Assembly: GCA_900315485.1 (NCBI GenBank)
Contig: OMZI01000012.1
Span: 1 to 64,000 of the forward strand
Origin: an uncultured Eubacteriales bacterium
GTDB lineage: Bacteria; Bacillota; Clostridia; Peptostreptococcales; Anaerovoracaceae
Length of the DNA stretch: 64,000 nt
Direction of reading: 5' to 3'
A program made the translations under genes and the position numbers. Below are positions 26,641-59,743 of this stretch, in pieces. The stretch's first letter is position 1, and every line of letters begins with the position of its first letter. Under the pieces are notes generated by a model. It did no database searches and was not told the DNA's origin. It worked only from the letters and a program-made list of their open reading frames with translations.

Positions 26641-26648
26641 ATATTGTC

Positions 26649-26724: not shown

Positions 26725-26741
26725 ACGAGAGTCTGAGAAAT

Positions 26742-26818: not shown

Positions 26819-26833
26819 ATTAAATATTCTCAA

Positions 26834-26910
26834 TGGTCGGGGTGGCAGGATTTGAACCCGCGGCCCACTGGTCCCAAACCAGTTGCGCTACCAAACTGCG
26901 CTACACCCCG
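26834..26910 (-). tRNA. tRNA-Pro (TGG), copy 2
   Basis: Identical over its full 77 nt to the neighbouring copy; anticodon TGG, encoded CCA. Confidence 0.96.
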
Positions 26911-26934
26911 AAAGTGATAACATATTCAATGAAT

Positions 26935-27010
26935 TGGCAGGGGCAGTAGGACTTGAACCCACGGCACGCGGTTTTGGAGACCGCTGCTCTACCAACTGAG
27001 CTATACCCCT
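26935..27010 (-). tRNA. tRNA-Trp (CCA)
   Basis: Complete 76-nt cloverleaf, acceptor AGGGGTA, anticodon loop CTCCAAA, discriminator G, encoded CCA. Confidence 0.96.
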
Positions 27011-27014
27011 ATAA

Positions 27015-27108
<94 letters not shown>

Positions 27109-27139
27109 ATAGCTGCAAAAACGTTCACCAGTATGATCT

Positions 27140-27228
<89 letters not shown>

Positions 27229-27254
27229 ACAAACATAGCCGGGATAAGGTGAAT

Positions 27255-27330
27255 TGGTGACCCATCGGAGACTCGAACTCCGGACACCTTGATTAAAAGT
27301 CAAGTGCTCTACCGCCTGAGCTAATGGGTC
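27255..27330 (-). tRNA. tRNA-Lys (TTT)
   Basis: Complete 76-nt cloverleaf, acceptor GACCCAT/ATGGGTC, anticodon loop CTTTTAA, encoded CCA. Confidence 0.96.
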
Positions 27331-27335
27331 ACAAC

Positions 27336-27410
27336 TGGCTGGGGTAGCAGGACTCGAACCTACGAATGACAGAGTCAAAGTCTGTTGCCTTACCGCTTGG
27401 CTATACCCCA
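27336..27410 (-). tRNA. tRNA-Gln (TTG)
   Basis: Complete 75-nt cloverleaf, acceptor TGGGGTA, anticodon loop CTTTGAC, encoded CCA. Confidence 0.96.
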
Positions 27411-27446
27411 TTAACAGGATAGTCGTCAAACCGTAGTAAAAAAAAT

Positions 27447-27523
27447 TGGTGAGCCCACAGGGATTCGAACCCCGGACACACGGCTTAGAAGGCCGTTGCT
27501 CTATCCAACTGAGCTATGGACCC
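27447..27523 (-). tRNA. tRNA-Arg (TCT)
   Basis: Complete 77-nt cloverleaf, anticodon TCT. The acceptor GGGTCCA/TGGGCTC contains two G-T wobble pairs. CCA is encoded. Confidence 0.95.
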
Positions 27524-27552
27524 ACGATGCCCAACTATGTGTTTTAAAAAAA

Positions 27553-27626
27553 TGGAGCGGATGATGAGAATCGAACTCACGCTATCAGCTTGGAAGGCTG
27601 AAGTTCTACCATTGAACTACATCCGC
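27553..27626 (-). tRNA. tRNA-Gly (TCC)
   Basis: Complete 74-nt cloverleaf, acceptor GCGGATG, anticodon TCC, encoded CCA. Confidence 0.96.
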
Positions 27627-27631
27627 AAAAG

Positions 27632-27706
27632 TGGAGCGGAAGACGAGATTCGAACTCGCGACCCTCGCCTTGGCAAGGCGATGCTCTACCCCTGAGCCAC
27701 TTCCGC
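27632..27706 (-). tRNA. tRNA-Gly (GCC)
   Basis: Complete 75-nt cloverleaf, acceptor GCGGAAG, anticodon GCC, encoded CCA. It follows the broken tRNA-Tyr by only a few bases. Confidence 0.96.
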
Positions 27707-27708
27707 AC

Positions 27709-27768
27709 ATCGAAAGCTGAGCTAACGGATTTACAGTCCGCCCCCTTTGGCCACTCGGGAATCCCTCG
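27709..27768 (-). pseudogene. Truncated tRNA-Tyr (GTA), T arm and 3' acceptor missing
   Basis: The 5' acceptor strand, D arm (CCCGAGTGGCCAAAGGG), anticodon arm (GGACTGTAAATCC) and variable arm (TTAGCTCAGCTTTCGA) of a tRNA-Tyr are present. The sequence then passes directly into the leader of tRNA-Gly (GCC). No T loop (TTCGAATCC), 3' acceptor strand or CCA follows. The first acceptor base is C where G is usual. It cannot form a working tRNA as read. Confidence 0.85.
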
Positions 27769-27837
27769 AAATTTGTGTATATAGTCATCCGGCAGTTGGG
27801 TCACCGGAAAACTGGCAATTACTATTATGTGATTTTC

Positions 27838-27882
27838 ATCCGGAAGATGCAAGTACTTTTTAATAAACTTGCATCTCCGGAT
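27838..27882. repeat. Long hairpin inside the tRNA array
   Basis: A 16-bp stem with one bulged A joins 27838-27854 to 27867-27882 around an AT-rich 12-base loop. It lies in a 117-base gap between tRNA-Thr and the broken tRNA-Tyr, where other spacers are mostly 5 to 40 bases. No T run follows on the transcribed strand. Confidence 0.6.
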
Positions 27883-27885
27883 TCT

Positions 27886-27960
27886 TGGAGCTGATGGAGG
27901 GAATCGAACCCCCAACCTGCTGATTACAAATCAGCTGCTCTACCGTTGAGCCACATCAGC
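27886..27960 (-). tRNA. tRNA-Thr (TGT)
   Basis: Complete 75-nt cloverleaf, acceptor GCTGATG/CATCAGC, anticodon TGT, encoded CCA. Confidence 0.96.
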
Positions 27961-27964
27961 AAAA

Positions 27965-28041
27965 TGGCGACCGGGAACGGGCTCGAACCGTCGACCTCCA
28001 GCGTGACAGGCTGGCATTCTAACCAGCTGAACTACCCGGCC
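27965..28041 (-). tRNA. tRNA-Asp (GTC)
   Basis: Complete 77-nt cloverleaf, acceptor GGCCGGG, anticodon GTC, encoded CCA. Confidence 0.96.
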
Positions 28042-28046
28042 ACTTG

Positions 28047-28122
28047 TGGTGGACGCAATAGGGCTCGAACCTATGACCCCCTGCTTGTAAGGCAGGTGCT
28101 CTCCCAGCTGAGCTATGCGTCC
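28047..28122 (-). tRNA. tRNA-Val (TAC)
   Basis: Complete 76-nt cloverleaf, acceptor GGACGCA, anticodon TAC, encoded CCA. It is the first tRNA transcribed. Confidence 0.96.
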
Positions 28123-45877: not shown

Positions 45878-47899
45878 TTATTCTTCGTCCTTTGCTTCCT
45901 CAGCAACCTCTGCAGCCTCTTCAGCTGGTGCCTCTTCTTCAGGAGCTGCTTCCTCTTCAGGAAGAGCTGCCTTGATGCTCAGGCTGATTCTTCTCTTTTC
46001 AGGGTCGATCTCCATGATCTTGACCTTGACTGTCTCGCCGACCTTGAGTTCATCACTTACGTTCTCAACTCTCTTGTTAGCGATCTCGGAAATGTGAACC
46101 AGTCCATCAAGTCCTGCTTCGAGTTCAACGAATGCACCGTACTCCTTGGTCTGAACAACCTTTCCGTCGAGTACATCGCCTACCTGGTACTTGTCCCCTA
46201 CAAGAGTCCAAGGTTCAGGCTGAGTCTGCTTGAGTCCGAGAGAGATCTTGCCCTTTTCCTCGTTGAGTGAGAGGATCTTGACATTGATGATATCACCGAT
46301 CTTGAGAACTTCTTCAGGGTGCTTGAGCTTGCCCCATGAAATCTCGGAAATGTGGAGAAGTCCGTCAACTCCGCCAATATCTACGAATGCACCGTAGTCG
46401 GTGAATCTCATTACCTTACCTTCAACTACATCGCCGACATTCAGATTGCTCCAGATCTCAGCAACTGCCTTACGCTTTTCCTCTACTAGTACTGTCTTGC
46501 GAGAGAATACTGCTCTGTTACGCTTTGTATCAACTCTGATAACTCTTACATCGACATTCTGTCCGAGGAACTCATCTGCGTTCTCAACATATCTGTCGGA
46601 AAGCTGGGACATAGGGATGAAACCTGTGATTTCCTTGTAAGCTGCGATAACACCGCCGTTTACGGCTCTTACCAGCTTAACGTTGATAACATCCTTATTC
46701 TCCATTGCTTCTTCGAGCTCAGTGTAGTTCTCTACTGCTACGAGTCTCTTCTTTGAGAGGAGGATTCCGCCTTCTCCCTCATCAGACTTGATAACCTTAG
46801 CCTGGATGTCATCGCCTTCCTTGAATACGTCAGAGAGTTTCTGTCCTTCTTCGAGAACAACCTCATCAGCTCTGAGGATTCCGTCTTTCTTGCATCCCAT
46901 GTTGACGATTACTGCATCGTCCATAACCTGATCAACCTTACCGTCAATAACATCGCCTGGCTTTGGTAAACGTAAAGATTTCTCAATGTCATCCATGAAA
47001 TCCATCATCGGATTCTGTTCCATATTCTTAGTGACATTTTCGCTCATACTAGAAATAACCTCCTTGATAATCCATTCGGGCGTAGACGCGCCCGCTATAA
47101 CGCCAATTTTATTACTTTTTGAAGCTTGTTTCAATAGCTTATCGTCAGCATTTTCAATAAAAATGCTATTTTCACAATTATTTTTAGCTATTTCATACAA
47201 CTTGCCCGAGTTGGAGCTGTGCTTATCTCCCACCACGACCATCATGTCAACTTGACGGGCCAGCTGACGGCAGCTCTCCTGCCTGTCCCTCGTCGCGTTG
47301 CATATCGTCCTGCGCACATCATAGGTTTTGCCGGCTCTGTCAAACTCTGAAAGTATGTCTTCAAGAAGTTCTGCCTTGATGGTTGTCTGGCATACGATCA
47401 CAGGAATGTCAGCATTTTTATGCCCGGAAACATACTCTGCAGCTTCTTCCGCATTGCCTATAACCTCTGCCTCATATCCGCACCAGCCGCAGGTGGCTCT
47501 GACCTCCTGATGGTTTCTGTCTCCTACCATGATCACAGGTCTTCCTGCCTCATGCGCTTCACTTACGATATCATGTATCTTTTTGACAAAAACGCATGTC
47601 GTATCCACAAGTCTGATCCCGCGGCGCTCAGCTTCCTCATAGAACTCTCTCGGCTCACCGTGCGACCTGACTATAACTGTATCGCCCTCCTCTGCTTCGG
47701 AAAGCGATCCGATCATTTTGACTCCCATCGACTCCAGCCGTGAAACGACAGCGCTGTTGTGGATGAGATGTCCGCAGGTAAAAAGCCTGCCCTTTCCGTC
47801 CTGCGCGGAGGCATGCTTCTCAGCTTCTGTAAAAGCCAGATTGATGGCTCTGTCTACTCCGAAACAGAATCCGGAGTGCTCTGCTCTTATGATTTCCAA
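45878..47899 (-). CDS. ispH-rpsA: IspH-ribosomal protein S1 fusion
   Basis: The 673-aa protein joins 4-hydroxy-3-methylbut-2-enyl diphosphate reductase (about 1-285; iron-sulfur Cys12, Cys102 and Cys200) to four S1 RNA-binding domains (about 300-640) and an Ala/Glu-rich tail. This fusion is known in Clostridia. The first half makes isoprenoid precursors; the second half serves translation or another RNA role. Both halves are intact in one frame, so no assembly fault is suspected. Confidence 0.96.
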   Translation of the reverse strand: MEIIRAEHSGFCFGVDRAINLAFTEAEKHASAQDGKGRLFTCGHLIHNSAVVSRLESMGVKMIGSLSEAEEGDTVIVRSHGEPREFYEEAERRGIRLVDTTCVFVKKIHDIVSEAHEAGRPVIMVGDRNHQEVRATCGWCGYEAEVIGNAEEAAEYVSGHKNADIPVIVCQTTIKAELLEDILSEFDRAGKTYDVRRTICNATRDRQESCRQLARQVDMMVVVGDKHSSNSGKLYEIAKNNCENSIFIENADDKLLKQASKSNKIGVIAGASTPEWIIKEVISSMSENVTKNMEQNPMMDFMDDIEKSLRLPKPGDVIDGKVDQVMDDAVIVNMGCKKDGILRADEVVLEEGQKLSDVFKEGDDIQAKVIKSDEGEGGILLSKKRLVAVENYTELEEAMENKDVINVKLVRAVNGGVIAAYKEITGFIPMSQLSDRYVENADEFLGQNVDVRVIRVDTKRNRAVFSRKTVLVEEKRKAVAEIWSNLNVGDVVEGKVMRFTDYGAFVDIGGVDGLLHISEISWGKLKHPEEVLKIGDIINVKILSLNEEKGKISLGLKQTQPEPWTLVGDKYQVGDVLDGKVVQTKEYGAFVELEAGLDGLVHISEIANKRVENVSDELKVGETVKVKIMEIDPEKRRISLSIKAALPEEEAAPEEEAPAEEAAEVAEEAKDEE

Positions 47900-47921
47900 T
47901 TCAGGTTCTCCTTATGTGAAA

Positions 47922-47944
47922 GCCTGCCGGACAGACCGGCAGGC
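47922..47944 (-). terminator. Hairpin after the Mrp-like operon
   Basis: GCCTGCCGG and CCGGCAGGC enclose a five-base loop. The minus-strand continuation is only weakly T-rich (TTTCACAT). It ends the antiporter operon. Confidence 0.65.
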
Positions 47945-47964
47945 AGTTATTGACTGTTGATCGT

Positions 47965-49731
47965 TTATCTTGCCACTATTGCTGCAATTATCAGCATTGC
48001 AGCGAATACTGTAACTATGGCAGTTACTATGTCGCCGACAAGTCTGTCCTCATTCTCGAATGAGAAGTTCTTGATGCGTACGCTGCTGCTGGTTCTGGTC
48101 CAGAGAGTCGGATCTCCGAAGTGCAGTCTGAGGTATTCTGCTGCTCTGCCGCTGTGGATGCCGCACCATCTGAAGATGCTTTCAATAACATGTGAGATCT
48201 TCAGCATCAGGGTGTTGAACGGTCTTCTGTAGAACCAGTCAAAATCCACGGTCACTTCGTCGTGCGGTTTCATCTTCTTCAGATAAAGGAAGAATGGTAT
48301 CGATCCTCCGATGAAGATGGCGATGTATTCAAGAACATGTCCCATGTGATAAGGCTCTACGATCGTCTTATATGGCATAAGAGCGTAGAACTTATCCGGG
48401 AATATGCCGATCGCAACGGTAGCGGCTGTACCGAGAACCATAGCGAGGTTCATAGAGAACGGTACTTTCTTATCCACTTCTGAGACTGTCTCATCATCAC
48501 AAGGTCCGAAGAAAACAAAGTAATTGATCTTCAGTGTGATGGACAGAAGTGTACCGACGCCGCCTGCAGTAAGGAGCAGAGCCGGGATAGTATAACCCGC
48601 CTCATGGACCGCATCCATGATAAGCGCTTTGCTCACAAATCCTGAAAGACTGGGCAGACCGGCTATAGCGAGAGAACTGATAAGGAAACATCCCGCCGTG
48701 ACAGGCATCTTCTTCGCAAGTCCTCCGAGCTCGGTGATATTGCTCCTGCCCGTAGCATATATGACTGCACCGGCACCCATCATAAGCACACCCTTGAACA
48801 GAATGTTGGTGAAAGCATGTGCTGTTGCGGCGTCTATTCCGATCGCGCCGCCGACACCTGCTGCAGCTATCATCATGCCGAGCTGGCTTACGATGTGATA
48901 TGCCAGCAGTCTTCTGATGCCGTTTTCCATGATCGCCATACATGCACCATAGATAGCGACGATAGCTCCTATCCATACGAGGTCTGTCATGCCGCTCATC
49001 ATCCTCAGCATCAGATAAATTGCAGCCTTGGTAGTGAATGATGAAAGATATACAGTTCCGGTTGCAGTTGATTCAGGATAAGCGTCCGGAAGCCATGCAT
49101 GCAGAGGCGGGATAGCTGCGTTGACAGCAATTCCGATCGCTATCAGCCAGAAGCACGGCTCACCTATGCAGTCTGAAAGATGACCGAGATTGTTGTCATA
49201 GTGGAACATGTATATGATAAGTCCCGCAAGCAGCATATTGCCGCCGAATGCGTGTACCAGTATATATCTGAAGGATGCTCTCGCAGATGCCCTGTCATGC
49301 TTGCAGTAAACGACATACATCGATGCAAAAGCAGATATCTCCCAGAAAACGATCAGAGAAATACAGTCTCCTGCAAGTATGACGCCCATTACGCTGCCCG
49401 CATATACCATCGACATACCGCACTCATATCTGTGCTGGATGCCTATTCCGTATATTCCGTTGAGGATCGCTATGATGCAGAACACCAGCATGAATGTCCA
49501 TGCCAGACTGTCGAGGTGTATGAACTCCATCTGAATATACGGTGCAAGCTTATACGGAAGACTGCTGTCAGGTGTCATCTGCAGGAATGCCCACGCCGCA
49601 GTTACAGGCGCGATAATACTGAGAGGCTTTCTGAAGCCCCTCGGAAGAAGCATGACAAGAATACCGAACAGGATCATTATGATCCCCGGATGCAGTATAG
49701 TCATTAACTTGTCAGTTGTGAATCCTGCCAA
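47965..49731 (-). CDS. Mrp/Nuo antiporter-like membrane subunit (third MrpD-type protein)
   Basis: The 588-aa protein has 14 or more helices of the NuoL/M/N-MrpD type. Typical segments are IVFWEISAFASMYVVY (with the conserved Glu in helix 5), PPLHAWLPDAYPESTA and SNITELGGLAKKMP. The lysines on TM7 and TM8 that move protons are present in general form. A long C-terminal amphipathic part follows (about 490-560). It is the last gene of the operon. Confidence 0.88.
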   Translation of the reverse strand: MAGFTTDKLMTILHPGIIMILFGILVMLLPRGFRKPLSIIAPVTAAWAFLQMTPDSSLPYKLAPYIQMEFIHLDSLAWTFMLVFCIIAILNGIYGIGIQHRYECGMSMVYAGSVMGVILAGDCISLIVFWEISAFASMYVVYCKHDRASARASFRYILVHAFGGNMLLAGLIIYMFHYDNNLGHLSDCIGEPCFWLIAIGIAVNAAIPPLHAWLPDAYPESTATGTVYLSSFTTKAAIYLMLRMMSGMTDLVWIGAIVAIYGACMAIMENGIRRLLAYHIVSQLGMMIAAAGVGGAIGIDAATAHAFTNILFKGVLMMGAGAVIYATGRSNITELGGLAKKMPVTAGCFLISSLAIAGLPSLSGFVSKALIMDAVHEAGYTIPALLLTAGGVGTLLSITLKINYFVFFGPCDDETVSEVDKKVPFSMNLAMVLGTAATVAIGIFPDKFYALMPYKTIVEPYHMGHVLEYIAIFIGGSIPFFLYLKKMKPHDEVTVDFDWFYRRPFNTLMLKISHVIESIFRWCGIHSGRAAEYLRLHFGDPTLWTRTSSSVRIKNFSFENEDRLVGDIVTAIVTVFAAMLIIAAIVAR

Positions 49732-49764
49732 CCGGCGTCCTCCCCGCTTTTCTTAAGATATCTG

Positions 49765-50691
49765 TTACAGTTCACTGTCAGCAGCCTGTTCTTCAGCTGC
49801 TTCATTGATCAGGTCGAGTATTTCTCTCTTGGTAACTTTATCATGTAGCTCTATTCCCATTCCGACGGCAATCTCTGTGAGCTCCTTCTTGTTCATGTGC
49901 ATCGAAGGCTTGCGTCTTCTTTCCGTAAAGGCCTTTTCGAGGCTGTCACGTATCTCAGCATACGACTCTGTCCACTCGCTGACAGGCTCGTTCTCCGCTG
50001 CCCTGGCCTTAGCCTCATCCATAGCCGCCTTAGCCTCTTCGAGTTCTTCAGCAGCCTCTTCCTCTTCTTTTCTCTTAGGTTTCTTAGTCCTGCTTGTCTT
50101 GGCCTTGATGCTGAAGCCAAATGTCTCTTCAGGAGTCTTCGGTTCTTCAGGTTCAGCTTCAGGTTCTTCAACTGCAGGTTCCGGTTCAGGCTCCGGTTCG
50201 GTTTCTTCCGGCACTTCCGGTTCAGGCTCAGGCTCTGCTTCAGTTTCTTCAGCCACTTCCGGTTCAGGTTCAGGCTCTTCAGTGACCTCTTCTGCCTCTT
50301 TTTCAGGCTCAGCCGCTTCTTCTTCATACTTTTCAGGCTCAGAAACTGTCTCTGCGACGTCCTCTTCCTGTTCCGTATGAACTTCTATGCTCTCAGCTAT
50401 CGCATCAGGTACCTCGAGCATGATTTCTTCAGGTTCTGCTGCTTCAATATCACCGAGCTGAGCTTCAAGGTGTTTCTCCTCTATGATCTCACCTTCAGGG
50501 TTGGTCTCATGCTCTTTGGTGATACTGATGCCTCCGGCATTCAGCATGAGCTCCTCCTCCCTGAGTTCGCGGGCATTGTAATAGTCTGCAGGCCTTCTTA
50601 TAAGGGCTTGCAGTATTATCTTGCTCATGATGATCAGAATTACTGAACATATGAACGCTATTCCCAGATACTCAAGAGTTTCAAGAAGCAT
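49765..50691 (-). CDS. Membrane-anchored acidic protein with HeH/Rho-N-like C-terminus
   Basis: The 308-aa protein has one N-terminal helix (about 8-30), then an extremely acidic region of about 150 residues with Pro-Glu repeats (EPEPEPEV, EPEPEPAV), then a Lys/Arg patch (TSRTKKPKRK), a helical segment and the C-terminus RRRKPSMHMNKKELTEIAVG. It ends with TKREILDLI. That tail resembles Rho-N/HeH/SAP-like nucleic-acid folds and closely matches the tail of the MnhG-like protein of the same operon. No homologous family of the whole protein is recognised. The tail should be cytoplasmic. Confidence 0.6.
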   Translation of the reverse strand: MLLETLEYLGIAFICSVILIIMSKIILQALIRRPADYYNARELREEELMLNAGGISITKEHETNPEGEIIEEKHLEAQLGDIEAAEPEEIMLEVPDAIAESIEVHTEQEEDVAETVSEPEKYEEEAAEPEKEAEEVTEEPEPEPEVAEETEAEPEPEPEVPEETEPEPEPEPAVEEPEAEPEEPKTPEETFGFSIKAKTSRTKKPKRKEEEEAAEELEEAKAAMDEAKARAAENEPVSEWTESYAEIRDSLEKAFTERRRKPSMHMNKKELTEIAVGMGIELHDKVTKREILDLINEAAEEQAADSEL

Positions 50692-50702
50692 TGCATCTGC
50701 AC

Positions 50703-52214
50703 CTACATATATGGCATGAATATCTGATTGCCGGCCATGACAGCCAGGTCAAACAGATGAAGTCCCGCATTAGGGAATACTCCAAGGATTATGGATATTA
50801 CAGCTGTGATGATCAGCGGTACCAGCATTGCCGGAGCCGCCTCTCCGTATTTTTCAAACTCAGGATTGTCGACATTCTTCTTGAATGCAACCAGCACCAC
50901 CGGCATCAGGTATGTAAGAGCCAGAAGAGCGCTTGCAATAAGCGTGGCAACGAATACCGGCTTGCCCATTGCAACGGCACCCATAATGATATTCGCCTTG
51001 CTTACGAATCCGACGAAGAACGGGAATCCTGCGATCCCTATTGAAGCAGCCGTGAATGCGATCATCGTGTAAGGCATCCTTCTGCCTATACCGACCATCT
51101 CACGGATGTCTTTCTTATGTGTGGTAACGAATATAGCACCTGCAGCCATAAAGAGAGTGATCTTCATGAATGCATGGGCAACTATGTGGTAAAGCGCTCC
51201 CGCAGTACTGTATGGAGTCAGGATGCATATACCGAGAACGATATACGACAGCTGTCCGACAGTCGAAAATGCGAGTCTTGCCTTGAGATTGTATTTTCTC
51301 ATCGCGATAAACGATGAAACTATTATTGTAAACACGGCCATCCACGCCAGTATTTCAGCTCCCTTGCAGGCTTTCGCAGCCTCAGGACCGAATACATACA
51401 GCACCACTCTGAGAGTGCAGAAGGCTCCGGCCTTGACTACGGCTACTGCATGCAGAAGCGCGCTTACCGGTGTAGGCGCGACCATCGCAGCAGGAAGCCA
51501 GCTGTGGAGCGGCATAACACCTGCTTTGACCATACCTGCTCCTACCATCATGAAGAACACGAGCAGCATCCACGGCATCGGCATCATATCAGGCTTGATA
51601 AATCCGCCCGGTGTGAATTCCATCGTGCCGGTGACTGCATAGACTATTACTATGCCTGCGAAGAATATCTGTCCGCTTATCAGAGTATATGCCAGATACT
51701 TTCTGCCTGACATCGTGCCTTCAGCATCCCTGTAGTGCACAACGAGCGGATAAGTTGCTACTGTCAGAACTTCAAAGAAGATGAAAAATGTTATCAGGTT
51801 GGCGGCAAAACAGAGTCCCGTAGCTGCGCACAGGCACATAGCGAATGCTGCATAGTAGCCTGTCTGGTTCTGCTCTCCGTGCCCTCTCATGTATCCGATC
51901 GAATAGATCGATGTCAGTATCCAGAGCGTGGATGCGACGCACGCGAAGACCATTCCCGCCGCATCGACATTGAACGCGAAAGATACTCCCTTTACGATGC
52001 TGAAGAGTTCAAGTCTGATTTCCGTGCCCGCAAGAACAGCAGGGATCATTGAATATACGATGATGATCTTAAGGACTGCTGCTGTGAGGGTTATTCCCTC
52101 TCTTGCATTAGGACGTATATGCTCGCCGAGAACATATATCAGGCCGGATGCAATGAGCGATACAAGGACAGCATACAGAGGTCTCAGTTCAAGTGCTGTG
52201 AGGTAGTTCATCAT
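50703..52214 (-). CDS. MrpD-type antiporter subunit (copy 2)
   Basis: The 503-aa membrane protein belongs to the NuoN/MrpD family, with FFEVLTVATYPLV (conserved Glu), PLHSWLPAAMVAPTPVSALLHA and FSTVGQLSYIVLG. Its start overlaps the previous gene's stop by four bases. It carries the conserved Lys/His of the half-channels and probably translocates Na+ or H+. Confidence 0.9.
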   Translation of the reverse strand: MMNYLTALELRPLYAVLVSLIASGLIYVLGEHIRPNAREGITLTAAVLKIIIVYSMIPAVLAGTEIRLELFSIVKGVSFAFNVDAAGMVFACVASTLWILTSIYSIGYMRGHGEQNQTGYYAAFAMCLCAATGLCFAANLITFFIFFEVLTVATYPLVVHYRDAEGTMSGRKYLAYTLISGQIFFAGIVIVYAVTGTMEFTPGGFIKPDMMPMPWMLLVFFMMVGAGMVKAGVMPLHSWLPAAMVAPTPVSALLHAVAVVKAGAFCTLRVVLYVFGPEAAKACKGAEILAWMAVFTIIVSSFIAMRKYNLKARLAFSTVGQLSYIVLGICILTPYSTAGALYHIVAHAFMKITLFMAAGAIFVTTHKKDIREMVGIGRRMPYTMIAFTAASIGIAGFPFFVGFVSKANIIMGAVAMGKPVFVATLIASALLALTYLMPVVLVAFKKNVDNPEFEKYGEAAPAMLVPLIITAVISIILGVFPNAGLHLFDLAVMAGNQIFMPYM

Positions 52215-53689
52215 AAGCCCACCCCCTCAAGCGTCATCAGGAGTATATCTATGATCCTGACATTGAAGAGACCAAGCCCGAGTATGGCAAGGAAGCACAC
52301 AACTACAGGCAGAATGATGCTGACAGGAAGTTCGAATTCTTCGCTCTTCCATCTTTCCTTGAGGCCTGCGCTCTGGCGGATGAATACCTTCTCGATCAGT
52401 TTGAAGAAATATACTGCGTTGAGAAGACTGGAGATCACAAGCACTGCTATGTAGATCCATTCATGCCTTCCGGCTGCGCCGAGTGCGAGATACCACTTAC
52501 TGAAGAATCCGACTGTCGGCGGGATACCTATCATAGAAAGCGACGCTATCACAAGCAGCCCGCATGTAAGCGGCATCTTCTTGTATATCCTGCCGAAGTT
52601 GTCTATATCCGCAGTTCCGTATTTATACCTGATGGCTCCGGTGCAGAAGAAGAGCCCGCCCTTCATGAAAGCATGTCCGAGCATGTGAAGGAACGCTCCT
52701 GCAAGGGATATTGGCGTTCCGATGGCAAAACCGAGTGATATGTAGCCGATCTGTGCCACCGATGAGTATGCGAGTATTTTGCGTATATCTGACTGGCCCA
52801 TGGCCATGATCGATCCGTAGAGCATGCCTATCACCGAGAATACTCCGAGAAGTATGAGTGACAGTCTTACGAATCTGAAATCTGTGCCGTATATGCAGAA
52901 GAAGAATCTGAACATTGCAAGTGCAGGCACTTTGCCCATGACGCCTGTGATCAGAGGTCTTGAGCCGGGTTCAGCATGAGCATATGCAGATGGCTGCCAT
53001 CCGTGGAACGGGAACAGTGCCATCTTGATGCCGAACGCCGGGATCAGAAAGCACATTGCAACGAGCATGGCGTTGTCATGTCCGCCCTCATTCAGTATCT
53101 TAGCCATGTCTCCCATGTTGAGAGTTCCGGTCGCTCCGTACAGGATACCGATGCCAAGAAGATAGAATGTAGCTGCTATGGTTCCTACGAGCATGTATCT
53201 GTATGCCGATACTACGCCCCTGCTTCCGCCAAGAGATATGAGGCAGTATGCTGAAAGCGAGGTGATCTCGAGGAATACATACAGGTTGAACACATCTCCT
53301 GTAGAAGTCATGCCGAGAAGTCCCGTGATCAGCAAAGCGATCTCTGCGTTGGCTGCAGCGATCATCATAGGACGCTTTCTGTCTCCGAAGTTGCCTGCGA
53401 AGATAAGAGTAAGGATTCCTATGAGTGAGAATGCCACAAGGAGGACAGCATTCAGCGAGTCTATGACGAGCTCTATGCCGTACGGCACTGCGTAATTGCC
53501 GATCGCATAATGAATAGGACCGTTCTTTACGACTTCGGTAAGCTGTATGACAGACAACACAAAAGAGCCCAGGCAGGCTATCTTGACCACAGCGTTGCCG
53601 AGGTGTCTGTTCACCTTAGTCAGCGCGAGGCAAGGAAGTGCTGAGCACAGCGGTAGCAGTATTACCAGTACAGGTATGTTAGCTGTCAT
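52211..53689 (-). CDS. mnhD: MrpD-type antiporter subunit (copy 1)
   Basis: The 492-aa membrane protein is close to classical MrpD: VFLEITSLSAYCLISLGG (conserved Glu), LFPFHGWQPSAYAHAEP, YSSVAQIGYISLGFAIG and DNFGRIYKKMP. It is the canonical D subunit in gene order after mnhC. Confidence 0.92.
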   Translation of the reverse strand: MTANIPVLVILLPLCSALPCLALTKVNRHLGNAVVKIACLGSFVLSVIQLTEVVKNGPIHYAIGNYAVPYGIELVIDSLNAVLLVAFSLIGILTLIFAGNFGDRKRPMMIAAANAEIALLITGLLGMTSTGDVFNLYVFLEITSLSAYCLISLGGSRGVVSAYRYMLVGTIAATFYLLGIGILYGATGTLNMGDMAKILNEGGHDNAMLVAMCFLIPAFGIKMALFPFHGWQPSAYAHAEPGSRPLITGVMGKVPALAMFRFFFCIYGTDFRFVRLSLILLGVFSVIGMLYGSIMAMGQSDIRKILAYSSVAQIGYISLGFAIGTPISLAGAFLHMLGHAFMKGGLFFCTGAIRYKYGTADIDNFGRIYKKMPLTCGLLVIASLSMIGIPPTVGFFSKWYLALGAAGRHEWIYIAVLVISSLLNAVYFFKLIEKVFIRQSAGLKERWKSEEFELPVSIILPVVVCFLAILGLGLFNVRIIDILLMTLEGVGL

Positions 53690-53733
53690 GCTGTCTGTTC
53701 CTTCTCCTTCTCAGTTGTTTTCTATCTGTAAAT

Positions 53734-54165
53734 TCACTCATCATCGCCCGGATGATGAAGCTCTCTGCGTTTCTTATCTCTTCTGGCCTGCTGAGCCTGT
53801 TTCTTCAGCAGATCATCCTCTTCAATGGTCCCGTACTTTTCCTTGATCCTCAGAAGAAGCGACAGACCTACTCCCGTAGTACCAAGGCTGACTACGATAG
53901 CTGTAAGCATAAGTCCGTGCGGAAGCGGATTGATATACTCTGCCGCTTTGACCGCCTCATTCATCGCGACCGGGATCGTCCCCGGATCCTTCTGTCCGAG
54001 ACACAGGAAGAAGAATATTACTGCGACCTGCATGACGTTCATGCAGATCAGCTTCTTCATGTAATTGTTGCACACTATAACACCCGCCACTCCGAGTGAG
54101 AGAAGCAGTAATGTAAGAAGATATATTCCTTTTGCTGCCAGGAAGGCATCAATCGTTGTCATCAT
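53734..54165 (-). CDS. mnhC: MnhC/MrpC (NuoK-like) subunit
   Basis: The 143-aa protein has three helices and GTIPVAMNEAVKAAEYINPLPHGLMLTAIVVSLGTTGVGL, the NuoK-like region with the buried Glu. The C-terminal basic tail is longer than usual (QQARRDKKRRELHHPG). ATG 54165 or 54162 are both possible; the gene overlaps mnhB by 17 bases. Confidence 0.9.
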   Translation of the reverse strand: MMTTIDAFLAAKGIYLLTLLLLSLGVAGVIVCNNYMKKLICMNVMQVAVIFFFLCLGQKDPGTIPVAMNEAVKAAEYINPLPHGLMLTAIVVSLGTTGVGLSLLLRIKEKYGTIEEDDLLKKQAQQARRDKKRRELHHPGDDE

Positions 54166-54919
54166 CGAAGGAAATCCTCTCCATAAGTGCGTTAAGTATT
54201 GTAATTATCGTTCCGGCAACTCCGATGGTAACTCCTATCTCTACTGCAGTTATACCGAGAGAATGGAGCTCAGCCTGATGGACCGGAAGCGGCATTTTAT
54301 TGTATTCGAGATACAGCCCTCCGCCGATGATCGATATGAATCCGGTAAGAGCATATATGAACGGACCGATACCGGCCAGAGCAGCTGAATTATCCTTAGG
54401 AAGGTTGAAGATAGGTCTCTTCCTTCCTACTACCATGATATCGAGAAGATATGTCATGCCAATAAGAGCCCCTGCCTGGAATCCTCCGCCAAGGCTTATC
54501 TCCCCGTGGAAAAGAACATACATGGCATATATCAGGATGACAGGCTCGATAATGGATATCATTACGTCCTTGTTGACAGTCCTGTAGACAGGATTTCCGG
54601 ATGTGTCCCTTAGTCTCTTGAGAGATGCCGGAGCCGGGATCCTGCTCTTAGGACGGTTAGCAAGTATTATCACTACCGAGAGTCCTGCGAGGAACATTAC
54701 GGTAGTCTCGAACATGGTATCGAAAGCCCTGTAATCGACGATGACCGCGGTAACCATGTTAGGAGAATTGCACTCTTCAATAGCGTGCTCGATATAATAA
54801 TCGGACACGTGAGTATTAGGGGCCGATGCAGGGTCCCCGATGGCCGGCAGTACATCGAATGCGATGAACGGCACGGTGATAGACACTATTAAGAGTATGA
54901 TAGTGATCGCTCTTCTCAT
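54149..54919 (-). CDS. mnhB: MbhE-MnhB fusion-type subunit
   Basis: The 256-aa protein joins an N-terminal part like MbhE/MrpA C-terminus (NMVTAVIVDYRAFDTMFETTVMF) to MnhB (ILIYAMYVLFHGEISLGGGFQAGALIG). In full Mrp systems these segments are parts of MrpA and MrpB. The ATG at 54919 follows the stop of the MbhD-like gene by four bases; the longer frame begins with an unsuitable TTG. Confidence 0.85.
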   Translation of the reverse strand: MRRAITIILLIVSITVPFIAFDVLPAIGDPASAPNTHVSDYYIEHAIEECNSPNMVTAVIVDYRAFDTMFETTVMFLAGLSVVIILANRPKSRIPAPASLKRLRDTSGNPVYRTVNKDVMISIIEPVILIYAMYVLFHGEISLGGGFQAGALIGMTYLLDIMVVGRKRPIFNLPKDNSAALAGIGPFIYALTGFISIIGGGLYLEYNKMPLPVHQAELHSLGITAVEIGVTIGVAGTIITILNALMERISFDDDND

Positions 54920-54923
54920 CTTC

Positions 54924-55163
54924 CTACTTGGTCTTACGGTCAATAGATCTCAGAATTATGATAAAGAATACTGTCGAAATGACACCGATGACTGCCTCGG
55001 TAAAGGCAACGTCAGGCGCACCCATGATGTTGTACAGCAGCATGGTCAGGAAACTGAAAGCGCAGTAAATCACAACAGAGGTCATCAGATCCCTGCCGAA
55101 TATGATCGCGATCGTTATTCCTATCAGTCCTATAAGAAGGACAGCCTGGAGTATGAGTGTCAT
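54924..55163 (-). CDS. MbhD-like DUF4040 subunit
   Basis: The 79-aa protein has three helices and NIMGAPDVAFTEAVIGV, the DUF4040 signature found in MbhD and in the C-terminal part of MrpA. It supplies the lateral helices of the antiporter. Its presence as a separate gene, with the MbhE-like segment next door, indicates the split Mbh-like arrangement. Confidence 0.85.
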   Translation of the reverse strand: MTLILQAVLLIGLIGITIAIIFGRDLMTSVVIYCAFSFLTMLLYNIMGAPDVAFTEAVIGVISTVFFIIILRSIDRKTK

Positions 55164-55205
55164 TGTTTCTTTCTGTGTGTAATAAATGTTACGGACGGAA
55201 ACGGA

Positions 55206-55883
55206 TTATTTATCCTTGTCTGCATAAATAAGGTCAAGTATGTCTCTCTTGGTTGCTCCTTCAGGTACGCTGATCCCTCTGTTCTCTGCGGCCTTTATGA
55301 GTTCAGCCTTGTTCATACTCATTGAAGGCTTTCTTCTGCGCTTCTTCTTAGAAGCCTGCTTCTTTTCATCTTTGCCTTCAGATTTCTTCTCAGGTGCCTG
55401 TTTCTTTTCAGTCTTGACTTCAGGTTCTTTGTCAGGCTTATCCTGCTTGTCTTCCGGCTTATCTGCCTTTGTCTCTTCCTGTTTTTCTTCAGCCGGCTTA
55501 TCTGCCTCAGCCTTTTCCGGCTCATCTTCCGGTTCAGGATCAGGAGAAACATACTCAGCCGCAGTCTCTTCGCCTGACATCCTGGTCCGGTAGCCGAGAT
55601 AGTCCTCTTTATTGATAGCCGCTATCATCATAAGATTGGTGCCGATCGGGTTTGTCAGGACTATGATGATGAATATCAGGAATATCTTGACTGAAAGAAG
55701 GCCGCCGTGAACTGCAGCCATCATACCTGCCAGAATAAGGAATGCTCCGAGAGTATCCCCAACGCCCTGGGCATGCAGCCTCGTGAAGAAGTCAGGGAGT
55801 GCAGCTATGCCTATGAGCGATGCCAGCATGAACAGGAGTCCAAGTATTATGAGAACGGCCGTAATGATCATTGTAGCTGTCAT
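55206..55883 (-). CDS. mnhG: MnhG with long charged linker and HeH/Rho-N-like tail
   Basis: The 225-aa protein begins with a normal three-helix MnhG (GIAALPDFFTRLHAQGVGDTLGAFLILAGMM) of about 95 residues. A 90-residue Glu/Lys/Pro-rich linker follows, ending in KKKRRRKPSMSMNKAELI and TKRDILDLI. That tail matches the end of the 308-aa acidic protein of the operon. MnhG proteins normally stop near residue 110, so the extension is the notable part. The start overlaps mnhF as ATGA. Confidence 0.85.
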   Translation of the reverse strand: MTATMIITAVLIILGLLFMLASLIGIAALPDFFTRLHAQGVGDTLGAFLILAGMMAAVHGGLLSVKIFLIFIIIVLTNPIGTNLMMIAAINKEDYLGYRTRMSGEETAAEYVSPDPEPEDEPEKAEADKPAEEKQEETKADKPEDKQDKPDKEPEVKTEKKQAPEKKSEGKDEKKQASKKKRRRKPSMSMNKAELIKAAENRGISVPEGATKRDILDLIYADKDK

Positions 55884-56146
55884 TTTTTCCGCCCTCCTAT
55901 ATACTTCGCAAGGATGACGGATGTCACAAATCCGAGGATCGAATAGCTGAGTGCTATGTCTATGAACATGTCCTCCCTGCCGCCAACGAATCCGACAACA
56001 AGAATAAGCAGCACGATAACAGTGTTCATCGCGAAAACGTAGTTGAGCTTGTCAAGCAGCGCCTTCCTTCTGAACATCAGGACTACCATTGCTGCAAGTA
56101 TCAATATGAGTGCCGCAAGCACATACTGCCAGAAGTTCGTCATCAT
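55880..56146 (-). CDS. mnhF: MnhF/MrpF subunit
   Basis: The 88-aa protein has three helices and DKLNYVFAMNTVIVLLILVVGF and FIDIALSYSILGFVTSVILAKY, the MnhF pattern with the conserved Asp. It overlaps mnhE and mnhG by four bases each, so translation is coupled. Confidence 0.93.
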   Translation of the reverse strand: MMTNFWQYVLAALILILAAMVVLMFRRKALLDKLNYVFAMNTVIVLLILVVGFVGGREDMFIDIALSYSILGFVTSVILAKYIGGRKK

Positions 56147-56760
56147 ATGCTCTTCCTCCTGACTTTATATTTCCTGCGTACAAGTTCCGGCCTTTTCTGC
56201 GGGATCTCACGTTTTACTTCCTTTTCATCTACCGGGCAAAACTCGATCGTCTCGCCGTACAGCCATGCGACCTTGGCCTGCATGGACCCGTCAAGAAGGC
56301 CTTCGCGAAGTTCCCCGGTAAGTGCGTGAACAGAGAAAACCCCTTCATCCGTAATATCTATAGTTATAGTTCCCGGTGTCAGAGTAATTGAATTGGCCAG
56401 CATGGATAATGCTGCAGGATTATCATAATCAGCCCTGAACCATGTGACCGAAGGATCCACCTTTTTCCTGTCAAATAGGGATATCCGGGCAACATAAATG
56501 GCCGACTTGGCGATCTGCACAAGCAGCCATGCAAAATACCCTATGAATCTGAATATGTTGACTCCGAGAAGATAATATTGTCTGTCTGTCTTAGCGCCGC
56601 GCATAGTAAGCGTTCTGAGGCATACTGCAGCTATCAGCATACTTGAAACAGCGCCGAGTATGAGGAATTTAGGTTCCGTTTTTTCTGACATTACAAACCA
56701 CAGCACCATCATCAGCACTGCCGTTCCTGTCCAGTTCAATACGGGATGATTATTCCGCAC
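56143..56760 (-). CDS. mnhE: MnhE/MrpE subunit
   Basis: The 205-aa protein has the MnhE helices (WTGTAVLMMVLWFVMS) and the cytoplasmic domain with LANSITLTPGTITIDITDEGVFSVHAL. It is the first gene of the operon and starts with GTG at 56760 after GAGGGG. A clear sigma-A promoter is not seen upstream. Confidence 0.92.
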   Translation of the reverse strand: MRNNHPVLNWTGTAVLMMVLWFVMSEKTEPKFLILGAVSSMLIAAVCLRTLTMRGAKTDRQYYLLGVNIFRFIGYFAWLLVQIAKSAIYVARISLFDRKKVDPSVTWFRADYDNPAALSMLANSITLTPGTITIDITDEGVFSVHALTGELREGLLDGSMQAKVAWLYGETIEFCPVDEKEVKREIPQKRPELVRRKYKVRRKSI

Positions 56761-56896
56761 TACTCATTTCCCCTCTGTTAACCTAAAGAATATACATAGT
56801 ATACACTATCAGCGTCAGTTCTATCTACAGTAAAAAGCGGACATTTATACATACATGGAAAGCCTCTGACAATTCAAAAACTATCGTTCCCATATG

Positions 56897-56925
56897 TTTA
56901 CAAACAGTTGTTCGAATGCTATAAT
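56897..56925 (+). promoter_or_regulatory. Promoter with LexA (SOS) box, upstream of the radical SAM gene
   Basis: TTTACA (56897-56902), 17-base spacer, TATAAT (56920-56925). The spacer overlaps CAAACAGTTGTTCG (56901-56914), which reads CGAACAACTGTTTG on the other strand and fits the Gram-positive SOS box CGAACNNNNGTTYG. LexA bound here would cover the promoter. Confidence 0.75.
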
Positions 56926-56971
56926 AATTTCATCTATAATACGGCATTACCGTATAATTACACACTATCAG

Positions 56972-56985
56972 GGTGCTGCAGCACC
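56972..56985 (+). repeat. Perfect 14-bp palindrome in the radical SAM leader
   Basis: GGTGCTGCAGCACC is self-complementary and lies in the untranslated leader 22 bases before the start codon. It could be a leader hairpin or a protein site; the sequence does not decide. Confidence 0.45.
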
Positions 56986-57006
56986 TTCAGTATCGGGGAG
57001 TATTTG

Positions 57007-57837
57007 ATGAAGAAGGATTTTCCTAAGATTGGTCCTACAGTGACCATGTTTGTTCCTTATGACTGCAATAATGCATGTCCATTCTGCGTTAATAAGAAAG
57101 AGTATCGGGACACCTCTTCCTTTGACCTTAACAGATGTTTCCAGGCACTTGACCTCATGGACAGGATCTTTCCGCACAACGATGTAGTTCTTACAGGCGG
57201 AGAGCCTCTGGCAGAGCTCGGTGCACTTCAGAACATCCTTGACCACATAGCAGACGGTCATCATATCTACATCAACACAACCATGCCTGTAGGTGAAGGA
57301 CAGACCATACAGGATGTTGCTGACATCCTCAACAAGTATGCTGACAGGATCAGCTGCATCAATGTATCCAGACACCTCAAGCACTATGTCAAGGAATGTC
57401 CGGATGAGATATTCAAACTGTTCAAGTTCAGAACAAGAATCAACTGCGTAGTATTCGAAGATGCCAAGGATTCTGAGACCAGAGAAAAGCTCATTAAGTT
57501 CCTTGACAGATTCCAGGGCCATGAGATACAGCTCAGAGCCAACTATTCATATCTCACACTTGAGAATGTGTTTGATACCGAGAATGACAACCTGTTCAAG
57601 CTGATATCTGAGATCTGCGAATACAAGTATCCTCTTGAGAAGGAACGTTTCAGAACAGGCTATGTTTTTGAAAGAAACGGCAGCAAGATCACCTATCATA
57701 AGACACTTCCGTTCGCCAAGGTAGACGGAGTCGTAGGAGACATCATAATCCGTCAGACCGGCCGCATCTATGATGACTGGAACGAGTACGGACATGAACT
57801 GAATATAAACGATCTTGTAACACATCAGTATAAGTAA
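57007..57837 (+). CDS. Radical SAM protein under SOS control
   Basis: The 276-aa protein has CNNACPFC, the CxxxCxxC cluster motif that binds the iron-sulfur cluster and S-adenosylmethionine, followed by VVLTGGEPLAELG. The length and TIM-barrel-like order fit a single-domain radical SAM enzyme. The start is ATG 57007, with GGGAG six bases upstream; the frame opens further upstream but without a good site. It precedes lexA by 82 bases with no terminator between, so both probably share the SOS promoter. The substrate is unknown. Confidence 0.8.
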   Translation: MKKDFPKIGPTVTMFVPYDCNNACPFCVNKKEYRDTSSFDLNRCFQALDLMDRIFPHNDVVLTGGEPLAELGALQNILDHIADGHHIYINTTMPVGEGQTIQDVADILNKYADRISCINVSRHLKHYVKECPDEIFKLFKFRTRINCVVFEDAKDSETREKLIKFLDRFQGHEIQLRANYSYLTLENVFDTENDNLFKLISEICEYKYPLEKERFRTGYVFERNGSKITYHKTLPFAKVDGVVGDIIIRQTGRIYDDWNEYGHELNINDLVTHQYK

Positions 57838-57919
57838 CACACACTATCAGACATCAAATGAAAAATCTGCCCTACCGGGATGAGGACAGTAGAGTTCAGA
57901 AATGAGGAGATGATTCATA

Positions 57920-58561
57920 ATGAAAAAGAGCGAACAGCGTCAGCAGGATATACTGAACTTCATGAAGAAGACAATCGCTGCCAAGGGATACTCTCCTACT
58001 GTCAGAGAAATATGTCAGGCTCTCAGCATCAAGTCGACATCTACAGTACACAGTGATATCAAGACGCTTGAGGATAAGGGTCTTGTTAAGAAGGACCCTT
58101 CCAAGCCACGTACCGTGCTTCCTGTTGATATGATGCCGGCTGCAGGTTCAAGAACGACAGAGGATGACATCAACACTGTATCCCTGCCCGTGATCGGACA
58201 GGTAGCTGCAGGTGAGCCGATCCTTGCCGAACAGAATATTGTTGACCAGTTCCCTATGCCGGCAAGATTCGTAGGTCCGGGAAACAACTTTATTCTGACG
58301 GTTCACGGCGACAGCATGGTCAACGTCGGCATCAATGACGGAGACTATCTCATCGTTCAGGAATCGCACGAAGCAAACAACGGCGAGATCGTTGTTGCAC
58401 TGGTCAATGACGGATATGAATCAGGCGCAACGGTCAAGAGATTCTATAAGGAGTCAGACCACATCAGACTCCAGCCTGAGAATGATTTCATGGAACCTAT
58501 TATTGCCAGAGACGTTACCGTAGTCGGTAAAGTTAAGGGTGTTTTCAGATATCTGAATTAA
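57920..58561 (+). CDS. lexA: LexA SOS repressor
   Basis: The 213-aa protein has an N-terminal winged helix (YSPTVREICQALSIKSTSTVHSDI), the cleavage site Ala97-Gly98 (VAAGEP), Ser132 in GDSM and Lys173 in ATVKRF. LexA represses DNA-damage genes until RecA filaments trigger self-cleavage. GAGGAG lies ten bases before the ATG. It lies downstream of the LexA-box promoter, so autoregulation is likely. Confidence 0.97.
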   Translation: MKKSEQRQQDILNFMKKTIAAKGYSPTVREICQALSIKSTSTVHSDIKTLEDKGLVKKDPSKPRTVLPVDMMPAAGSRTTEDDINTVSLPVIGQVAAGEPILAEQNIVDQFPMPARFVGPGNNFILTVHGDSMVNVGINDGDYLIVQESHEANNGEIVVALVNDGYESGATVKRFYKESDHIRLQPENDFMEPIIARDVTVVGKVKGVFRYLN

Positions 58562-58903
58562 ACACTTGCTAAATGGCATCGCCATAAGTATTATTATGCC
58601 ATACCATCGTGTGACCAAATATTTCACATGGTGTTATATATGCGGGCGTTTGCGGATCCGCTTCGATTCCCTCCTTTCTTTTTACCTTGTTGAATCGAGC
58701 TCTACGGACCGGCATCAGCCCGCACTTTTTGTGCCGTACTGTAGAACTTTTCCCCTGCAGATACGGGCATTTTCTTATTATTTATCTTGACTTATCCTGC
58801 AAAGAATATAAAATATAATTGCAACGCAGTTTAGACTGCGGTTTAATAAAAGATAACCACTGCATATAATAATTAAGGATATAGGAATTACGGAGGTACA
58901 ATA
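58562..58903. other. Non-coding or uncertain 342-base stretch between lexA and proC
   Basis: It holds a short hairpin after lexA (ATGGC-ATC-GCCAT, 58573-58585), a stem CGCAGT-TTAG-ACTGCG (58825-58840) and an AT-rich proC leader. A 48-codon minus-strand frame (58569-58715, MPVRRARFNK) lacks a good ribosome binding site and is not called as a gene. A second TGCGGGCG/CAGCCCGCAC complement could pair over distance. No known RNA family is recognised. Confidence 0.4.
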
Positions 58904-59704
58904 ATGAAAATCGGATTTCTTGGTGCCGGTGCTATGGGCGGAGCCATCCTCTCAGGCGCACTCGAAACAGGCGTTGTCAAAGCTGAAGATGTATACGTAT
59001 ACGATCTGAGTGAACAGATCAAAGAAAAATATAAGGCTCTCGGATGCAACATCGTCAGCGACAATGTTGAACTCGGTAATTCTTCAGATATACTTGTCTG
59101 CTCACTCAAGCCTCAGTATGCTCAGGGCGGACTTAAGCAGCTCGGAAATACGCTCGACGGAAAAGCTATGATCTCAATCATGGCCGGTGTCACTACAGAT
59201 ACTCTCCGTCAGTGGACTGAAGGAGACTTCAGACTCCTCAGGCTCATGCCTAACACCCCTGCTCTTGTTGGCGCAGGTGCTTTTGCACTTGACTCCAATA
59301 CAGACCTTACTGAAGAGGAAAAGGAATTCGCAGAGAAGCTCTTCTCCTCCATCGGTATCGTAGAATGGATGCCTGAACCTCTGATCGATACAGCATGCGG
59401 ACTCTCCGGAGCCGGCCCTGCTTATATTTATCTCGTCATCGAGGCACTTGCTGACGGCGGAGTAATGAAGGGCCTCCCAAGAGCCACAGCAATGAAGCTT
59501 GCAGCTCAGACTGTATATGGCGCAGCCAAGATGGTTCTTGAAACAGGCAAGCACCCTGGCGAGCTTAAGGATATGGTATGCTCCCCTGGCGGAAACACTA
59601 TCGTAGGAGTCAACACCCTCGAGCAGCACGGTGTTCGCGGAGCTTTCATCGACACAGTCGGCAAAGCAACAGAAAGAGCTCAGGAGCTTGGCAAAACCAA
59701 GTAA
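58904..59704 (+). CDS. proC: Pyrroline-5-carboxylate reductase
   Basis: The 266-aa enzyme makes proline from pyrroline-5-carboxylate with NAD(P)H. It begins MKIGFLGAGAMGGAILSGA (the Rossmann GxGxMG), and contains RLMPNTPALVGAGA and the C-terminal signature CSPGGNTIVGVNTLEQHGVRGAF. CGGAGG precedes the ATG by seven bases. A strong terminator follows, so it is a single-gene unit. Confidence 0.97.
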   Translation: MKIGFLGAGAMGGAILSGALETGVVKAEDVYVYDLSEQIKEKYKALGCNIVSDNVELGNSSDILVCSLKPQYAQGGLKQLGNTLDGKAMISIMAGVTTDTLRQWTEGDFRLLRLMPNTPALVGAGAFALDSNTDLTEEEKEFAEKLFSSIGIVEWMPEPLIDTACGLSGAGPAYIYLVIEALADGGVMKGLPRATAMKLAAQTVYGAAKMVLETGKHPGELKDMVCSPGGNTIVGVNTLEQHGVRGAFIDTVGKATERAQELGKTK

Positions 59705-59743
59705 CTGATACACTTATCAGACTATAAATAACCTTCCATAACA

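Follow-up and report, generated by a model that had tools for sequence, protein, structure and literature searches.

Why would two subunits of a cation antiporter end in the same small module, and what might that module bind? The question is raised by a 64,000-nucleotide stretch of DNA (positions 1–64,000 of contig OMZI01000012.1, assembly GCA_900315485.1; hereafter, the window) from an uncultured Eubacteriales bacterium of the family Anaerovoracaceae. According to the list of open reading frames (ORFs) in the window, the minus strand carries a ten-gene operon running from position 56760 down to 47965, with antiporter genes from mnhE to mnhD''. The gene order is mnhE, mnhF, mnhG (with a tail), mbhD, a fused mbhE/mnhB, mnhC, mnhD, mnhD', a gene that we call X (with a tail), and mnhD''. 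Nine of the ten genes are supported by a Pfam family, the exception being X. Judged by its predicted subunits, the operon is of the Mrp/Mbh antiporter type, without a redox module in view.

Two antiporter subunits end in copies of one module

X and MnhG each end in a basic patch followed by the motifs KPSM and TKR(E/D)ILDLI. An initial annotation of this DNA, made from the sequence alone, had assigned both genes to a single antiporter operon and pointed out this shared pattern; both statements are borne out, the two genes lying on the minus strand. KPSM lies at residue 261 of X and residue 185 of MnhG, while TKREILDLI begins at X residue 287 and TKRDILDLI at MnhG residue 211, giving an identical offset of 26 residues. 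The two tails are 58% identical (E 1.8e-7, whole-genome scale), and the pair scores 107 against 53 for the best shuffle (none of 20,000 shuffles was as good), or 87 against 49 when the basic patch is left out. The identity and the shuffle test lead us to reject the annotation's alternative of convergent charged tails; that the tails are copies of one homologous folded module is near certain.

Two details of the annotation need revision. Firstly, the linkers between the membrane helices and the tails, given there as 90 to 150 residues, measure 86 residues for MnhG and 197 residues for X, lengths that depend on where the domain borders were cut. Both linkers are long, fast-changing and presumably disordered. 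Secondly, the tailed subunits do not flank the operon: MnhG is gene three of ten, and X gene nine.

X is a conserved small subunit of such antiporters with a single transmembrane (TM) helix and an RRxxDYY-like motif, and is untailed in other genera of the family (49765–50691; loci L034–L040 and L167–L184; G and L numbers are our handles for genomes and loci). By reading, its TM helix is N-terminal; the motif, here RRPxDYY, is conserved. The TM region found no family in PDB or Pfam searches (best PDB match E 0.36, a partial match to Serrate), and full-length X gave a single weak Pfam match (E 0.045). Full-length MnhG matched PF03334 and otherwise gave weak matches to charged stretches. A second short motif, resembling EIRxSLExAY, is conserved in the acidic X linker of several species, at about residues 245–255 (also L167–L170, L172, L174 and L181).

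Family and predicted fold

Profile matches and structure models together show the tails to be a putative two-helix Rho_N-like module (SAP/HeH superfamily), some 40 residues long and preceded by a basic run. We write Rho_N-like rather than Rho_N because the antiporter copies fail the curated cut-off of the Pfam family Rho_N (PF07498; 24.9 bits). A third tail in the same genome, at the end of ribosomal protein bL21 (L003), is 50% identical to the MnhG tail and is the only own-genome copy above that cut-off, scoring 28.1 bits in isolation and 27.9 in a six-frame search (the whole protein, at 23.9 bits, lies below it).

For wider searches, 25 tails (from X, MnhG, bL21, RDD, S1 and NusA proteins, with no Rho included) were aligned as profile A1. 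At E up to 0.1, Pfam assigns 18 of these tails to Rho_N, seven to HeH and three to SAP; the best HeH/LEM (PF12949) match has E 0.0021 and the best SAP (PF02037) match E 0.056. Searched against a class-level draw of 391 genomes, A1 retrieved three Rho proteins by their N-termini (E 6.5e-7, 2.0e-6 and 2.8e-6 per genome). All three (in G577, G673 and G510) are Rho by Pfam, with Rho_N at 33.1, 33.7 and 21.3 bits; the last, a true Rho (L232), is thus likewise below the cut-off. This draw also gave matches to bL21 proteins from the family and to proteins that are short or phage-like. The tail profile gives the MnhG tail E 1.7e-22 and the X tail E 6.5e-22, both being members of the profile. A PDB sequence search with it returned three L23 sequences only (E 0.45–0.47), which were of no use.

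The structure prediction called for by the annotation gave two helices in each tail. AlphaFold2 models, both built on three-row alignments, place them at 27–36 and 47–59 of the MnhG tail (blocks 21–50 with predicted local distance difference test scores, pLDDT, of 89–91; last block 81) and at 58–67 and 78–97 of the fragment in X (blocks with pLDDT 80–87; last block 67). The MnhG tail model superposes on Rho chains at 1.3–2.4 Å over 32–39 columns.

Other proteins that carry the module

The genus was represented by 47 genomes, including the one studied here (G000). A1 matches at E 0.001 or better were obtained in 45 of them (none in G162 and G167). Frames were classed by BLAST comparison with reference proteins and by inspection, which leaves some short or unplaced frames unclassified. 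Among the hosts, bL21 is tailed in 43 of the 47 genomes (42 of the 45 tabulated, plus L003) and an RDD membrane protein in 17 of 47 (plus a fragment in G186 taken for RDD). A C-terminal module is also found on bS20 in five of the 47 (G148, G149, G151, G152 and G170; loci L255, L260, L262, L264 and L270), and on a two-TM protein in two (G148 and G170). In G185 and G188, the module stands at the N-terminus of a single-TM protein, ahead of the TM helix (L308 and L310; TM counts of both protein types by reading). In G000, the fourth-best profile match is the N-terminus of an S1-domain protein (L137, G000:C42:38000-42500), whose S1 domain lies further along the chain and which has no other Pfam match.

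Outside the genus, the module is C-terminal on NusA in G113, G038 and G046 and on a LytB-S1 protein in G037, and N-terminal, before region 1.1, on a sigma-70 factor in G005 (L315, G005:C2). The NusA, S1 and sigma hosts are named cases rather than a counted share of such proteins. Pfam confirms the host identity of RDD, NusA and bS20 (one protein each), LytB-S1 and sigma-70. Three kinds of host were found by A1 while absent from it: bS20, sigma-70 and the N-terminal-module single-TM protein. In an order-level draw of 247 genomes, 61 gave a match, 58 of them in the family and three outside; nine further family genomes listed in the draw gave none, making 58 of 67.

In this bacterial family, these results show the module to be a suffix or prefix that is mobile among proteins. 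The company that it keeps (bL21, bS20, three more membrane protein families, LytB-S1, NusA and sigma-70) is new here; among the papers listed by searches of an open-licence library, none dealt, by title and abstract, with Rho_N tails on bL21 or antiporter subunits, in a search where the bL21 query was swamped by the strain name BL21 and bS20 was not included.

Distribution of the antiporter tails

Of the 47 genus genomes, 19 yielded an X, and the frames as read carry the tail in 16 of the 19 (the G151 tail has diverged; in G175, the linker and tail alone lie on the contig). MnhG was found in 17, with the tail present in five (G000, G191, G171, G183 and G177) and the G175 copy cut by a contig end. 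The frame table lists X in 14 genomes, since G000, G151 and G175 were read separately, and MnhG in four, since G000 was. In other genera of the family, 11 operon regions (L138–L148) gave no tail by tblastn or by an all-frame profile search (best E 31). Being wider in the genus (16 of 19 versus five of 16), the X tail looks older than the MnhG tail.

The annotation had proposed pairing on both subunits and named absence of the pairing from close relatives as its refutation. Thirteen genomes have a tailed X and a readable MnhG. The pairing exists in five of them; it is missing from the other eight (G166, G165, G186, G155, G154, G170, G148 and G151, where MnhG is untailed) and from the 11 other-genus regions. 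The refutation thus holds for the pairing and not for the X tail. A two-handed clamp, in which the X and MnhG tails act as a pair, is rejected as a general arrangement on the same eight genomes.

Some individual loci depart from these patterns. In G157, a linker and tail adjoin mbhD, but no TM part of MnhG turned up; this first-set MnhG tail adjoins an unrelated frame, perhaps through an assembly fault (L118, G157:C139). L118 also contains part of a second antiporter gene set, with a second mnhD'' behind another tailed protein that is cut by the contig end. The G155 MnhG (L158) has a long Lys/Ser/Asn-rich extension in place of the module, and in G177 both MnhG and X (L160 and L173) have long Lys/Ser/Asn-rich extensions past it.

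Selection on the tails and their descent

The X tail is under strong selection among near relatives, as read from nonsynonymous (dN) and synonymous (dS) divergence, and less clearly so over greater distance. Tail dN and dS are 0.010 and 1.12 for G157–G171, 0.031 and 0.75 for G171–G183, and 0.042 and 0.72 for G157–G183; in the linker, dN is 0.35, 0.30 and 0.52, respectively, with dS saturated throughout, and alignments of linkers of such composition are unsure. Between G000 and G191, the X tail (0.038 and 0.33) and linker (0.144 and 0.83) have ratios of 0.12 versus 0.17, a small difference. For MnhG, tail values in the same pair are 0.053 and 0.56 and linker values 0.107 and 0.55; in G000–G171, dN is 0.256 for the tail and 0.365 for the linker. 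The claim that the domain is kept rests on X among near relatives.

In a tree of the tails, the MnhG tails (six rows) are nested with X tails in a branch of 15 rows (95/97), and the RDD tails with bL21 tails in a branch of 25 rows (99/93). This nesting suggests that the modules spread within these genomes. The placement fits MnhG tails that arose by duplication within the operon, perhaps in more than one event, within the limits set by few columns. A test of all X and MnhG tails as one clade did not reject it (p 0.378), a result that, with as few as 45 columns, shows neither arrangement. The rows X_G151, G_G177, NusA, Rho and one phage-like row are long branches with unsure places, and one bL21 row is locus L020 of genome G019.

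What the module may bind

Because bL21, bS20, S1, NusA, sigma-70 and Rho share the module, its simplest function would be binding of RNA or ribosomes, or of one common partner. Of the anchors that the annotation had suggested (nucleoid, ribosomes or a partner), ribosomes gain indirect support from the module on bL21 of this genome and on bL21 and bS20 of its relatives. The explanation that we favour, tentatively and with slightly less than even confidence, is that a lineage-specific Rho_N-like module binds RNA, ribosomes or a common partner and so tethers membrane complexes to them; the partner is what we infer from these hosts. A study of the Mrp structure describes the MrpE domain and parts of the MrpG helices as exposed to the cytoplasm (PMC7419157); with this, and with the positive residues that by reading lie past the last TM helices, the tails would face the cytoplasm. 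There, the module would bind RNA, ribosomes or a single partner shared by the transcription–translation machinery. The long linker would serve as a flexible tether that, via X and in some species also via MnhG, ties the antiporter to polysomes or RNA lying at the membrane. The cell would probably gain by having control of ions and pH, or an anchor for ribosomes at rest, next to its ribosomes. It is unusual for an ion pump and a ribosomal protein of one cell to share a small domain; should the module bind ribosomes or RNA, it would be a genetically encoded, removable link of membrane energetics to translation in this bacterial family.

YqjD, ElaB and YgaM of E. coli are membrane-anchored, ribosome-associated proteins; they are C-tail-anchored single proteins outside any transporter, and we know of no Rho_N-like module in them. 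YqjD offers a precedent that works in a similar way, being described as a membrane protein that associates with ribosomes (PMC10502375).

Several observations weigh against the favoured reading. The first group concerns family and fold. The annotation's likeness to HeH, SAP or Rho-N domains stands for a folded module of that general kind and falls short of the curated Pfam family Rho_N, since the isolated X tail reaches E 0.0028 and 18 bits, below the cut-off, and the isolated MnhG tail matches no Pfam family. Recovery of X, MnhG, bL21, RDD, S1 and NusA tails by A1 is by construction. The Foldseek neighbours of the MnhG tail model (T4 EndoVII, seven Rho entries, the LEM domain of emerin with BAF, and the SAP domain of MANF/CDNF with BiP) have no E better than 0.56, the Rho matches standing at 2 or more; those of the X tail model (among others Rho, CDNF/MANF SAP and EndoVII) have E 1.1 or worse. 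Of these fold relatives, LEM (with BAF), CDNF/MANF SAP (with BiP) and EndoVII act by binding proteins or by forming dimers. The net charge of the X tail is close to zero (-2 up to the last residue, compared with +4 for the MnhG tail) and its linker is very acidic (-57), which disfavours nucleic acid. The second group concerns spread and conservation. X is untailed in three of 19 genomes (G149, G152 and G190), and MnhG in 11 of the 16 that could be assessed. Short, phage-like and membrane proteins are among the carriers; three proteins of about 81–101 residues that end in the module (L223, L228 and L317; phage-like by reading only) score above the three Rho proteins with A1. In the distant pair G000–G171, X dN is 0.28 for the tail, 0.34 for the linker and 0.13 for the TM part, with tail and linker dS saturated, and in G171–G183 the MnhG tail (dN 0.218 versus 0.159 for the linker) shows no contrast.

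The Foldseek neighbours, the near-neutral X tail and the diversity of hosts all agree with a module that is a small protein–protein domain, by which the tails of bL21, bS20, X, MnhG and RDD would dock onto a single shared partner or onto one another. On the antiporter, such a domain could recruit a cytoplasmic regulator or link complexes into clusters, comparable to LEM–BAF and to MANF/CDNF SAP–BiP. We hold this to be a serious competitor, if a somewhat unlikely one: Rho_N is the commonest Pfam match of the tails, the identified soluble hosts (bL21, bS20, LytB-S1, NusA, sigma-70 and Rho) mostly handle RNA, and the X–MnhG tail pair is not required, as the untailed MnhG proteins beside tailed X demonstrate.

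A bolder reading, which we consider quite unlikely, is that the shared suffix acts as an address tag that would hold together ribosomes (bL21, bS20 and S1), the transcription apparatus (NusA and sigma-70) and selected membrane complexes (the antiporter, RDD and others), so that gene expression at the membrane would have a built-in scaffold.

The module might also have no binding function and be a spreading, nearly neutral suffix, tolerated where it lands. Its patchiness (RDD in 17 of 47 genomes, bS20 in five of 47, MnhG in five of 16), the nested copies in the tail tree and the weak selection contrast for MnhG and distant X would all follow. Such a suffix is improbable, given that X tail residues are kept among near relatives over dS of 0.7 to 1.1, that the two-helix fold of the MnhG tail is predicted with confidence, and that the module is so regular on bL21 and so widely matched in the family. 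Finally, SAP/HeH similarity and the module at the head of a sigma-70 factor could suggest a DNA-binding module that anchors the antiporter to the nucleoid, but this is very doubtful, as the bL21, bS20 and S1 hosts indicate RNA and ribosomes over DNA and just three of the 25 tails match SAP.

The operon and its relation to known systems

Coordinates of the operon genes, the tails and linkers, and the downstream neighbour are collected in Table 1.

Table 1. Features of the antiporter locus, in window positions
Feature	Positions	Strand	Pfam match or remark
mnhE	56143–56760	-	PF01899, E 1.5e-26
mnhF	55880–56146	-	PF04066, E 5.9e-10
mnhG (antiporter subunit G), whole gene	55206–55883	-	PF03334, E 3e-18
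MnhG Glu/Lys/Pro-rich linker, residues 96–181	55341–55598	-	
MnhG Rho_N-like tail, residues 182–225 (end of basic patch and two-helix module)	55209–55340	-	
mbhD	54924–55163	-	PF13244, E 3.8e-17
mbhE–mnhB fusion	54149–54943	-	PF20501, E 1.3e-10; PF04039, E 2.3e-20
mnhC	53734–54165	-	PF00420, E 6.9e-18
mnhD, antiporter-like subunit 1	52211–53689	-	PF00361, E 1.2e-58
mnhD', antiporter-like subunit 2	50703–52214	-	PF00361, E 3.9e-56
X, small subunit, one TM helix by reading	49765–50691	-	no Pfam family; RRPxDYY past the TM helix
X acidic linker, residues 61–257	49921–50511	-	net charge -57; recurrent EIRxSLExAY-like motif near end
X Rho_N-like tail, residues 258–308	49768–49920	-	
mnhD'', antiporter-like subunit 3	47965–49731	-	PF00361, E 3.8e-44
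ispH–S1 fusion, next downstream, outside the antiporter	45878–47899	-	PF02401 and four S1 stretches

The locus shares with the Mrp (CPA3) Na+/H+ antiporter and with the Mbh/Mbs membrane module the subunits E, F, G, MbhD, MbhE/B, C and three D-like subunits in one operon, and the B, C, D, E, F and G subunits expected of Mrp/CPA3 are all found together. The correspondence of Mrp and Mbh subunits is taken from PMC7419157 and PMC7684303. Mrp/CPA3 has a single long MrpA, whereas here its place is taken by split MbhD and MbhE/B and separate D-like proteins. Mbh/Mbs redox complexes have hydrogenase-like peripheral subunits beside the membrane genes, whereas no hydrogenase-like gene was noticed on reading the ORFs of positions 45,878–59,713, with Pfam run on the ten operon proteins and the ispH–S1 product and the rest of the genome not searched. 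The locus differs from both Mrp and Mbh in having the small TM subunit X, without a Pfam family, and predicted folded Rho_N-like tails on X and MnhG.

With the Rho N-terminal domain, the tails share the predicted two-helix fold, the retrieval of Rho N-termini by the tail profile and an isolated bL21 copy above the cut-off. They differ in that the antiporter tails score below it, are C-terminal on membrane proteins and lack a cold-shock or ATPase domain. The long bL21 models of NCBIfam (PRK12278) likewise cover a bL21 longer than the core model; the own-genome bL21 scores 122.8 against a cut-off of 281, and the match stops within the tail, at residue 150; the protein thus falls outside what these models describe.

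Both here and in several relatives from the genus, the ispH–S1 fusion comes after the antiporter operon, with no change of strand. Its end is an acidic stretch that is somewhat similar to the X linker, and the C-terminal end of its homologue in G037 (L116) is the Rho_N-like module of the antiporter tails. Elsewhere in the window, 15 tRNA genes are clustered on the minus strand at positions 26565–28122.

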